Below, one piece after another: positions 18,283 through 54,603 of a stretch of DNA of 64,000 bases; the stretch's first letter is position 1; each line of letters starts with the position of its first letter. The notes below the pieces were generated by a model that worked only from the letters and a program-made list of their open reading frames with translations, did no database searches and had not been told where the DNA came from. The DNA is from Levilactobacillus parabrevis ATCC 53295 (GTDB lineage Bacteria > Bacillota > Bacilli > Lactobacillales > Lactobacillaceae): assembly GCF_001434055.1 (NCBI RefSeq), contig NZ_AZCZ01000004.1:1-64000 (forward strand), read 5' to 3'. A program made the translations under genes and the position numbers.

Positions 18283-18415
18283 TGACGGCCACTCCTTTTT
18301 TAAAGTCATTAGATTTCCTTTTATGGCAAGAATAACGAAAGCGGCCACTGAAAGCAAGTTTCCAGTGACCGTTCGTCTAAATCTTCATCTTAGGTTAAGC
18401 TTTGGGTGTCTGTTA

Positions 18416-18450
18416 TCGCCTGCGGTTGCCAGAATTCCGACTGCTTTGGA
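18416..18450 (+). repeat. 5'-end fragment of the structured intergenic repeat family
   Basis: TCGCCTGCGGTTGCCAGAAT and the bases after it match the 5' ends of two other copies: TCGCCTACGACTGCCAGGAA at 48704 (plus) and TCGTCTGCGGCTGCCAGAG near 49092-49110 (minus). It lies just upstream of a full element. Confidence 0.5.
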
Positions 18451-18468: not shown

Positions 18469-18657
18469 AACGCCTTACCGGGCAGTGGCAATCAACCGGA
18501 ACGCTGTGGGTGGACGTCCAGAGCCAAAGAGCGGTCTCTGAACTTGCTTTGAACCTCTGAAAACCGAGTTTCAAAGACACCAGTTCTCTAAGTGGCAAAG
18601 TTCACCACTAAGAGAACTCCCACGGCTGGGTTGATTGCCACTACCCTCACGGCTCAC
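18469..18657 (+). repeat. Structured intergenic repeat, copy A
   Basis: About 190 bp between pspC and phoU. The outer stem pairs 18480-18497 (GGGCAGTGGCAATCAACC) with 18629-18646 (GGTTGATTGCCACTACCC). Inside are three hairpins: CAGAG/CTCTG with loop CCAAAGAGCGGT, CTTTGAA/TTCAAAG, and AGTTCTCT-A-AGTGG/CCACT-A-AGAGAACT. The sequence is closely similar to 54416-54603, and arm changes between the two copies keep pairing. No reading frame is conserved. It could be a non-coding RNA or a MITE-like repeat; which of these is unknown. Confidence 0.75.
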
Positions 18658-18900
18658 ATCCGTTTGGCCTCCGCACCATTCGCACCGTCACCTTAGTTCC
18701 GTTCCACTACATTGATTAAACCTATGATACCAAAACAGCAGTCCAAATTGACTGCTGATAAACATGGTTCTATTGTATGGTACACACGATGATTGTCCCA
18801 TCAGCAGGTGGAATTTCCGGCTGACGGAGACGCCTATATCAACTTTCAATTTTCAGTTGTAGTCACGGAAACAATTGGGAATGTTCAAACTACACTGATA
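18658..18900. other. Spacer between two structured repeats
   Basis: No convincing gene, operator or hairpin was seen. The bases directly after copy A (CCGCACC...GCACCGTCA) resemble those after copy B, so the repeat may extend some 30 bp further. Confidence 0.4.
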
Positions 18901-19100
18901 GATAACGCCTATGTCAGCCGCAGGGATGGCTAAAATGGGCTCAGCCGTGGGAATTGACTAGTTGGCAAGCTTGCCAACTAGTCAATTGGTGGATTTAAGA
19001 CGCGACTCTTAGCGGCTTAAATCCAAGCTTGAAGACCGCTCTTTGGCTTCAAGCGTCCCCCCACAGCGTCACGGCCCATTTTAGCCATCCCGGAGGCCCC
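18901..19100 (-). repeat. Structured intergenic repeat, copy C
   Basis: Same architecture as copies A and B but on the minus strand, just downstream of phoU. The outer stem is a perfect 18-bp inverted repeat (GGGATGGCTAAAATGGGC at 18923-18940 with its complement at 19074-19091). Inner hairpins: CTTGAAG/CTTCAAG (19028-19053) with loop CCAAAGAGCGGT, GGATTTAAG/CTTAAATCC (18991-19024), and a perfect 36-bp palindrome at 18952-18987. Shared unpaired motifs are ACGCTGTGGG-GGACG, GCCAAAGAGCGGTC and TTCCCACGGCTG. It may form the 3' end of the pst-phoU transcript. Confidence 0.75.
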
Positions 19101-19129: not shown

Positions 19130-19807
19130 CTAGTTGGGACTGTCTGAATTGGCGGGATTGAGTTCGATGATCTGGCCGGACTTCAGGTAGACGATCCACT
19201 CACACACGTTCGTCACGTAATCCCCGATTCGGCTCAGGTCCTGCGCCACATTGAGGTAAATTGAAGCGCCAGTCTCGAATGCTGGGTCCAACCGCATTTG
19301 CTGATAGCTGTCCGCTCGAATCTGGTGGTTCAGCTGGTCCAGCTTGCGGTCGACTTCTGCCAACTCGCGTGCGGCATGCTCATCCTTGTTGACGTACGCG
19401 GTCAGTACATCGCGAATCATTTGCGTGGTAATCTGACTCATTTCACCAATCAATTGCTCGAGCACGGGAATCTTCTGCTTGCTCCCAAATTTAATGGCGG
19501 AGTGGGCCACGTTTCTCGCGTGGTCCGCTGCCCGTTCCAATTCCGAAACAGCCTTCAAGATCGTGACAATTTCCCGTAGGTCGGTCGTCACTGGTTGATA
19601 CAACGCAATCATTTCAAAGGTCTTCTGCTCCAGCGAAATTTCGCGTTGGTTGATTTCGTGGTCATGATCGATCAGCTTTTGTGCCGCAACAGCATCGCGG
19701 TTCATAAAGGCGTCGACCGCTTGTTGCACGACCTCACTGACCAACATGCCCATTTCCGTAAAGTCAGCGTCTAGTTCTGCTAACTCATCATCAAACAATC
19801 TGCGCAT
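19130..19807 (-). CDS. phoU: Phosphate transport regulator PhoU
   Basis: A 225-residue all-helical protein with two PhoU repeats of about 100 residues. Metal-cluster motifs are visible as ELERAADHARNVA near residue 90 and DLSRIGDYVTNV near residue 192. PhoU sits at the membrane between the Pst transporter and the histidine kinase PhoR and keeps the Pho response off when phosphate is plentiful. It is the last gene of the pst operon, 11 bases after pstB, with AAGGAGG before ATG. Its partner kinase is probably the PhoR encoded at 26.7-28.0 kb. Confidence 0.95.
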   Translation of the reverse strand: MRRLFDDELAELDADFTEMGMLVSEVVQQAVDAFMNRDAVAAQKLIDHDHEINQREISLEQKTFEMIALYQPVTTDLREIVTILKAVSELERAADHARNVAHSAIKFGSKQKIPVLEQLIGEMSQITTQMIRDVLTAYVNKDEHAARELAEVDRKLDQLNHQIRADSYQQMRLDPAFETGASIYLNVAQDLSRIGDYVTNVCEWIVYLKSGQIIELNPANSDSPN

Positions 19808-24238: not shown

Positions 24239-24329
24239 TATAGCCCATTCACGCAACTTTTTTTAGGCGAATGGGTGTCTGCCCCTGATTACTGGCGTGG
24301 CTAACTACTAACTGGACTTTCTAGTTGGT

Positions 24330-24362
24330 CACGGCCGGCTACACCTCTGACCTCCTCCGACT
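24330..24362 (+). repeat. 3'-end fragment of the structured repeat family
   Basis: These 33 bases match positions 48920-48952 (minus strand) with only two differences; the shared core is CACGGCCGGCTACA-CTCTG-CCTCCTCCGACT, given here with the variable bases as dashes. A short hairpin before it (CTAACT / AGTTGG) fits the last hairpin of the element. The 5' half is missing or unrecognisable. Confidence 0.6.
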
Positions 24363-24431
24363 TAGATTAACTCTAACCGCAGTGAATGACGTCATCCCCC
24401 AAAACACCTCCACCAGGAAAGAATCTAAACC

Positions 24432-48919: not shown

Positions 48920-49110
48920 AGTCGGAGGAGGCCAGAGATGTAGCCGGCCGTGGAGGTGGTGTTAGCTGGCGATTCATTCCGGAGCCAGCTTACAGCACGG
49001 GCGACTTTGAAGACTCATGATTTTCGAGGCTTCAAATCGAGCGAGAAGACTGGTGATCTCCCAGTCTGAAGCGTCCCCATGGCCGGCGGAAACTCTGGCA
49101 GCCGCAGACG
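48920..49110 (-). repeat. Structured intergenic repeat, copy D (divergent subtype)
   Basis: Between rex and groES. Outer pairs: GCCAGAG (48931-48937) with CTCTGGC (49093-49099), and GCCGGCC (48943-48949) with GGCCGGC (49081-49087). Inner hairpins: AGACTGG/CCAGTCT (49047-49067), TTTGAAG/CTTCAAA (49006-49036) and AGCTGGC/GCCAGCT (48964-48990). The unpaired GGGGACGCTT and CCTCCACGGC correspond to motifs of copies A-C, and the 3' end matches the fragment at 24330. The CCAAAGAGCGGT loop is replaced. Confidence 0.65.
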
Positions 49111-54415: not shown

Positions 54416-54603
54416 GCGCCTTGCCGGGCGGTGGCAATAGACCGGAACGCTGAGGGCGGACGTCCAGAGCCAAAGAACGGTCTCTGGACTTGCTTTGAAC
54501 CTCTGCGAACCGAGTTTCAAAGACACCAATTCTCTAAGCGGCACAGCCGCTTAGAGAATTCCCACAACAGGGTCTATTGCCACCGCCCTCACGGCTCACA
54601 CAG
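54416..54603 (+). repeat. Structured intergenic repeat, copy B
   Basis: The best-formed copy. The outer stem is a perfect 18-bp pair (GGGCGGTGGCAATAGACC, 54426-54443, with 54571-54588). Inner hairpins: GTCCAGAG/CTCTGGAC with loop CCAAAGAACGGT, CTTTGAA/TTCAAAG, and a perfect 15-bp stem AATTCTCTAAGCGGC (54528-54542 with 54546-54560). A still longer-range pair GGGTTAAAC / GTTTAACCC (54399-54407, 54604-54612) closes it. It is opposite in direction to tsaD and lies in its upstream region. Confidence 0.8.

Follow-up and report, generated by a model that had tools for sequence, protein, structure and literature searches.

A perfect palindrome beside phoU of Levilactobacillus parabrevis probably belongs to a MITE-like family of branched mobile DNA in Lactobacillaceae

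The phoU-pspC gap and the copies in the window

We analysed a window of 64,000 nucleotides from Levilactobacillus parabrevis, in which the gap between phoU and pspC holds two structured elements, copies A and C, lying head-on to each other on the plus and the minus strand, respectively (Table 1). Copy C adjoins the 3' side of phoU, 30 bp from the stop codon, and folds into a four-helix junction with an energy of -115.3 kcal/mol, compared with a mean of -63.7 for shuffled sequences (z -10.9; 0 of 200 shuffles as low), and the opposite strand reaches -120.5 kcal/mol (z -10.5). The preliminary description of this DNA had proposed the four-helix layout with the loop CCAAAGAGCGGT, the perfect 18-bp outer stem and the head-on placement, and all of these are borne out by sequence and fold; the outer stem is contained in a pair of 24-nt arms with 92% complementarity. 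The same holds for its most striking claim, a perfect 36-bp palindrome in hairpin P4, whose two 18-bp arms adjoin with zero spacer. No other perfect stem in the 3' part of the core is as long as P4 of copy C among 215 copies from two genomes, and just one further stem of at least 8 bp there lacks a loop. Copy C contains no N. Its stems had also been called mostly unlike those of other copies, a fair statement when judged on copies C and A, which are 71% identical across 128 alignable nt.

Table 1. Element copies, their parts and older remnants in the 64-kb window, with the adjoining gene
Feature	Position	Strand	Basis or remark
Residual 5' arm of an older type 2 element, preceding copy A	18415..18449	+	Sequence
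Copy A, type 1 domain, head-on to copy C	18470..18658	+	94.8% identity to L. fuyuanensis counterpart
Remnant arm of the type 2 element still present 3' of phoU in L. fuyuanensis	18802..18834	-	Comparison with L. fuyuanensis
Copy C, type 1 branched domain (P1, P1b, hairpins P2, P3, P4)	18912..19100	-	Fold; model R1, 138.5 bits
Copy C, outer stem P1, mid-gap-side arm	18923..18940	-	18-bp perfect pairing with 19074-19091
Copy C, hairpin P4, loop-less perfect 36-bp palindrome	18952..18987	-	Sequence
Copy C, hairpin P3	18990..19025	-	Sequence and fold
Copy C, hairpin P2, conserved loop CCAAAGAGCGGT at 19035-19046 and extra-helical base	19027..19054	-	Fold
Copy C, outer stem P1, phoU-side arm	19074..19091	-	Sequence pairing and fold
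phoU, 3' side adjoined by copy C	19130..19807	-	Gene call
Fourth window copy, diverged type 2 domain core, absent from the preliminary description	48941..49084	-	
Copy B, type 1 domain	54416..54600	+	Covariance model

The gap also retains traces of older insertions. The residual arm that precedes copy A terminates at GCTTTGG, and its counterpart in Levilactobacillus fuyuanensis at GCTGTGG; copy A seems to have inserted into the older type 2 element to which this arm belonged. A few newer copies (L271 14777, L263 18514, L276 15535 and L121 688) directly follow the 5' arm of a previous copy, with the arm ending at GCTGTGG or close to it, and it is possible that this end of the arm is a preferred target inside the element itself. 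Elsewhere in the window, positions 24307-24387 apparently hold a partly deleted type 2 element, which is whole at the corresponding L. fuyuanensis site (L264 4254-4390).

Comparison of the gap across Levilactobacillus genomes, a check suggested by the preliminary description, revealed that the element is variously present, absent or differently oriented, and that different species bear different insertions. The sister genome used for our comparisons, L. fuyuanensis 244-4, is about 90% identical to L. parabrevis and carries a type 2 element 3' of phoU where L. parabrevis carries the type 1 copy C. In the four nearest relatives after L. fuyuanensis (PhoU 95-97% identical) the gap is short and element-free, and of the 30 phoU loci examined from 35 genus genomes, 8 have an adjoining match and 22 do not. 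A conserved ordinary long terminator, which the preliminary description had named as the finding that would overturn its reading, is therefore not what occupies this gap. Upstream of pspC, an element lies in one orientation in genomes G011 and G043, and a related one in G020 is inverted. Such related elements of opposite orientation are located near the same pspC-upstream spot of sister genomes in L257 (2463-2589) on the one hand and in L258 (1103-1229) and L259 (2403-2529) on the other, as a result of either in-place inversion or independent insertion.

A structured family with two domain types

The L. parabrevis genome contains 15 occurrences of the loop CCAAAGAGCGGT, and R1, a covariance model built from 11 copies, returns 143 matches at E <= 1 across the 2.6 Mb, a figure from which the actual family size may deviate because just 150 candidates were scored. 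In the 0.42 Mb of this genome that we examined, there are 145 merged copies, assigned by motif to type 1 (57), type 2 (83) or neither (5); N-containing copies, copies shorter than about 90 nt and copies with insufficient flank were excluded before counting, and the total includes a few copies that a single N interrupts, such as L086 360 and 474. Type 1 is a four-way junction closed by helix P1b (about GCTGNGGG/CCCACGGC), and type 2, the commoner form, for which a second model, R2, was built, has an additional helix, GGGAC/GTCCC, around P2 and P3. The best paralogue identity among the 145 copies has a median of 84% and a maximum of 93%, and there are no very recent copies among them. In six stretches (L011, L065, L086, L096, L103 and L111), a single N flanked by repeated sequence lies inside an element or at its edge. 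Such palindromes seem to be where assembly joins break down, and, as a practical matter, some gaps in the L. parabrevis assembly coincide with them.

Both types covary strongly. In the type 1 alignment A1 (11 copies), both sides change in 35 of 59 pairs, versus a shuffled mean of 17.8, and in the type 2 alignment A5 (56 copies) they change in 30 of 42 pairs, versus 18.3 (0 of 500 shuffles in either case). Shifting the partner by one column lowers the proportion of paired cells in A1 and A5 from 94-96% to 41-49%, a drop that is biased against the shifted versions by the use of RNAalifold structures derived from the same sequences. None of the 4227 families of Rfam 15 scored above its gathering threshold, and permissive thresholds yielded nothing credible.

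Neighbouring copies tend to face each other. Among neighbours less than 700 bp apart, 30 are convergent, none divergent and 1 tandem in L. parabrevis, and 17, 0 and 4, respectively, in L. fuyuanensis. The cores found in Lactiplantibacillus mudanjiangensis form convergent dyads with a spacing of 66-98 nt, and 16 of 17 of them combine type 2 with type 1. Such mixed combinations account for 12 of the 30 convergent pairs in L. parabrevis, for 10 of the 17 in L. fuyuanensis, and for none of the five in the Companilactobacillus and Secundilactobacillus loci, which are all type 2 with type 2. Many L. parabrevis copies have no recognisable partner. With genes defined as open frames of at least 90 aa, the 5' side is gene-proximal in 86 of 102 solo copies and 93 of 100 paired copies of the two genomes, a bias that loss of a partner half from the 3' side would predict for the solo copies. 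The orientation of the elements with respect to genes follows no consistent relation.

The family extends well beyond this species. R1 has matches in 22 of 40 genomes, L. parabrevis included, comprising 22 of the 24 within the genus and 0 of the 16 from other families of the order. R2, with 10 candidates scored per genome and strict filters, has matches in 75 of 301 Lactobacillaceae genomes and in 11 of 40 genera; outside the genus, a search with this model drew on 32 non-Levilactobacillus loci out of 108. The carriers among the matches listed include eight Levilactobacillus species, Lactiplantibacillus mudanjiangensis, Secundilactobacillus similis, Companilactobacillus nantensis, C. huachuanensis and C. 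hulinensis. Two queries against plasmids and one against phages found no match to the element. One IMG/VR viral contig bears a type 2 pattern (L232 247-277).

Ends, replacement and strand

The ends of the family were located in relatives. When 17 L. mudanjiangensis dyads are aligned, conservation begins and stops at 17-bp inverted repeats near CTAAAGGTTGAAAGCTA. With up to one mismatch allowed, the 16-base core of this terminal inverted repeat (TIR) is found in the L. mudanjiangensis genome 40 times in forward orientation, 43 times in reverse and 0 times when read backwards. Typical units there measure 510-545 bp from end to end, shorter single-domain or deleted units also exist, and the lengths of 13 distinct TIR-to-TIR units span 293-544. 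At least six of eight flanking bases match, as in an 8-bp target duplication, in 8 of these 13 units, compared with 0.8% of random pairings of the same flanks; a 7-base flank match appears after a one-base shift in units L180, L346 and L348, and units L216 and L218 have no flank duplication. Similar arrangements occur elsewhere. In the Levilactobacillus genome G014, a 384-bp unit with one domain (L357) is bounded by an exact 8-bp duplication, and a 587-bp unit with convergent type 1 and type 2 domains (L359) by a duplication of 7 bp. C. nantensis has a 347-bp, one-domain unit with an exact 8-bp duplication (L167) and a second unit (L171) in which a duplication was not found. The longest reading frame within 15 TIR-flanked units measures 28-73 aa. 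Four L. mudanjiangensis stretches in which TIRs lie 2-5 kb apart contain short units only and no autonomous element, and no autonomous partner was found in the G014 stretches examined.

The 16-base TIR core (up to one mismatch) is absent from the L. parabrevis and L. fuyuanensis genomes, and a search upstream of 214 copies of these two species yielded no TIR relic beyond controls; the TIRs of the window copies are thus deduced from relatives. Since the exact 17-mer is present in 5 of 397 family genomes, the outer repeat is lineage-specific or fast-changing, with the domains widely kept. A TIR match in a viral contig (L350) was rejected, as its partner repeat is missing and it looks like chance.

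Comparison of sister species uncovered extensive replacement. L. parabrevis and L. fuyuanensis have 53 matching sites (10 anchored by one flank), and at 32 of them an element matches its site partner best; in the other 21 (14 of the 43 with two anchored flanks), the element either is nearer to a copy elsewhere among those examined or has no match. Many matching sites hold a different copy in the same orientation, several swaps exchange type 1 for type 2 with an outer boundary common to both, and some newer copies are bordered by remnants of earlier insertions of the family. Some differences concern parts of the fold: at L085:4064 the difference lies mainly in P3, plus the base of P4; at L101:15898 both P1 arms differ and P2-P4 are nearly identical; and at L102:3695 (anchored by one flank) both P1 arms are identical and the core is different. 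Single helices thus look as if they had been exchanged between copies. The earlier proposal that stems were repeatedly replaced under a fixed architecture therefore stands in large part, backed by the covariation, by the swapped elements and, at some sites, by single-helix differences; the interpretation of the preliminary description as a whole is partly supported. One L. fuyuanensis insertion, missing in L. parabrevis, has a tail common to no other copy found. The idea of transduced tails was abandoned, as the BLAST matches of 150-nt tails to the loci examined, among those listed, fell mostly in other elements and came from copies split by an N or close to a neighbour; two tail queries against two whole genomes gave no further match beyond the gap of the sister itself.

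The imperfect pairs within the stems bear on which strand folds. Read on the strand that carries the loop CCAAAGAGCGGT, A.C exceeds G.U in 33 columns of type 1 and the reverse holds in 10 (72 sequences; sign p 0.0006; 156 vs 56 cells), and the corresponding values for type 2 are 30 and 8 columns (103 sequences; sign p 0.0005; 172 vs 91 cells), with p values that are optimistic because the sequences are related. Orthologous copies follow the same trend (A.C 57 vs G.U 38), which does not reach significance (p 0.06). Selection for RNA on this strand would tolerate G.U and not A.C; as the opposite is seen, the strand opposite the loop is the likelier single-stranded form. The use of one strand at each end of a dyad would be compatible with symmetric end processing. 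G.U-type cells remain below 4% on either strand, and, taking this share on its own terms rather than beside an RNA benchmark, we read the constraint as acting mainly on DNA or on both strands.

Interpretation and relation to known systems

Our data define a real family, far beyond chance, that is MITE-like, turns over in modules and is unusual in its branched interior of two domains. Copy C is probably one half, a type 1 domain, of this family of non-autonomous mobile DNA in Lactobacillaceae. Relatives combine TIRs with a target duplication of fixed length (L. mudanjiangensis, C. nantensis and genome G014), and, like MITEs, the elements are short, non-coding, multi-copy and polymorphic between species in their presence at a site. 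The membership of the window copies rests on these relatives, the copies' own ends not having been found. Mechanistically, a transposase acting in trans would move the units, and each domain may fold in single-stranded form, more probably on the strand opposite the loop CCAAAGAGCGGT, either during movement or as RNA. Selection on the fold, exchange of helices and hairpin-templated repair could together preserve pairing while the stem sequences drift. The family would then be a mobile element in which a branched fold is the selected feature, and sister species at about 90% identity offer a natural comparison of the states before and after elements and helices were swapped. There is also a reason for caution: mobile DNA, too, can give rise to the strong covariation by which functional RNAs are usually recognised.

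It is tempting to go further and propose, tentatively, a new class of transposable element, bounded at either end by a large branched fold (one of type 1, the other of type 2, inverted with respect to each other) that is recognised in single-stranded form, with one strand per end. Copies of such an element would persist for long periods at fixed sites, newer ones overwriting older ones and helices being exchanged as modules, so that mobile DNA would evolve in an RNA-like manner. We consider this stronger reading possible, with the odds against it.

The main alternative is that the domains are host-useful structured RNAs, transcribed from their own or a neighbouring promoter and kept for a function as 3' UTR stabilisers, RNase III substrates or small RNAs. 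We judge this unlikely, even though the RNA-like covariation and the predominance of G.U-type over A.C-type cells when the opposite strand is read are what it would predict. A further argument in its favour comes from 25 sites at which both sister species have kept the same element: divergence there is 4.8% in paired and 10.7% in unpaired positions, with 8.4% in the left and 17.0% in the right flank, and 13 double changes (8 Watson-Crick and 5 other) compare with 3.5 of any kind expected. This low in-place stem divergence could mean host function; it reflects either in-place selection on the fold or hairpin-templated repair that restores pairing, and the latter is in keeping with the loop-less palindrome of copy C. 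Several observations weigh against host RNA. The elements hold no consistent orientation to genes, the best sigma-70-like scores beside them fall almost equally on the two strands (62 vs 61 of 199, with means near those of shuffled sequence, in a crude scan), and a TTTT run after the 3' end is confined to 57 of 218 copies. The scarcity of G.U-type cells on either strand and the fact that the in-place excess of A.C described above is by itself not significant point the same way, as do the gain and loss of copies between species and the TIRs and duplications of relatives. A more specific version, a divergent small-RNA gene with promoters in the 3' tail, was dropped because promoter scores are equal on both strands and near those of shuffled sequence. 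The 3' UTR or separate small RNA considered in the preliminary description is not established, and the inverted repeats and target duplications of relatives point to mobile DNA instead.

Less probable still is a REP/REPIN-like element of giant size, mobilised by a Y1 (HUH) transposase of the IS200/IS605 kind whose recognition target is folded single-stranded DNA. The intergenic inverted pairs of folded units, the strand-specific fold, the extra-helical base in P2 and the negative plasmid and phage queries would agree with such an element, and genes for Y1 transposases (PF01797) are present in 23 of 35 genus genomes, with 6 matches in L. parabrevis. However, Y1 transposition is not expected to leave target duplications, and relatives have duplications of 8 bp. 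Moreover, several genomes rich in the element (G045 and G011, for example) lack Y1, and we therefore discarded it as a necessary partner.

We give very little credence to a retro-element anchored at its 3' end, which a reverse transcriptase would copy from RNA and which would have one fixed end and a variable tail opposite. Such an element could account for swapped sites with a sharp 5' and a variable 3' boundary, but RVT_1, found in 10 of the 35 genus genomes, does not follow the distribution of the elements and has no match in L. parabrevis or L. fuyuanensis, for which reason this reading was dropped, and the units of relatives are bounded by TIRs on both sides. Finally, the reading of copy C as an artefact of assembly or as a long intrinsic terminator of the ordinary kind, suggested by the long hairpin directly 3' of phoU and by the single N with duplicated sequence in several copies elsewhere, is refuted here: a U-run is generally missing, the element is not conserved at this gene end, the gap is short and element-free in the next four relatives, and the N-free copy C has about 140 covarying counterparts in its genome and relatives in many others, which excludes the artefact. 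Non-autonomous mobile DNA with a branched interior thus accounts best for copy C.

The family seems not to have been described previously in searchable papers. We found no description of it in the literature searched, whose reach left out most subscription papers, nor in the accessible portions of PMC11109978, PMC2267715, PMC8632094, PMC3733652, PMC10969869 and PMC2229807. The closest parallels in kind are the bacterial MITEs Correia/NEMIS and ERIC, which, in the available parts of PMC2229807 and PMC10969869, are likewise short, intergenic, many-copy elements with a stable fold and no long reading frame; their TIRs and target duplication are matched by the present family in relatives. While those MITEs appear in these parts as one long hairpin, the present family has two kinds of branched, covarying domains, placed in inverted arrangement within TIRs. 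It also differs from them in the apparent exchange of helices and in that the outer TIR was not found in L. parabrevis.

REP and BIME elements with their RAYT transposases (PMC3733652), and likewise REPINs, resemble the family as intergenic inverted pairs of folded units. Their hairpins measure 20-40 nt, whereas the present units have about 190-210 nt, several helices, 8-bp duplications and an inconsistent Y1 partner. A RAYT-type Y1 transposase in the same genomes, as expected of REP/REPIN elements, does not consistently accompany this family. The EFAR elements of Enterococcus faecalis are fold-back elements of about 170 bp in Lactobacillales with interchangeable sequence types. By general description they may be the nearest analogue; the name EFAR appears in the part of PMC3733652 available to us. 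Lastly, MRSC-65-2, a mobile or repeat sequence candidate described in the accessible part of PMC11109978, is also a multi-copy covarying motif, with an orientation independent of genes and possible relevance as DNA. In that account it forms a single long stem, in contrast to the four-helix junction and two-domain dyad that distinguish the present family.
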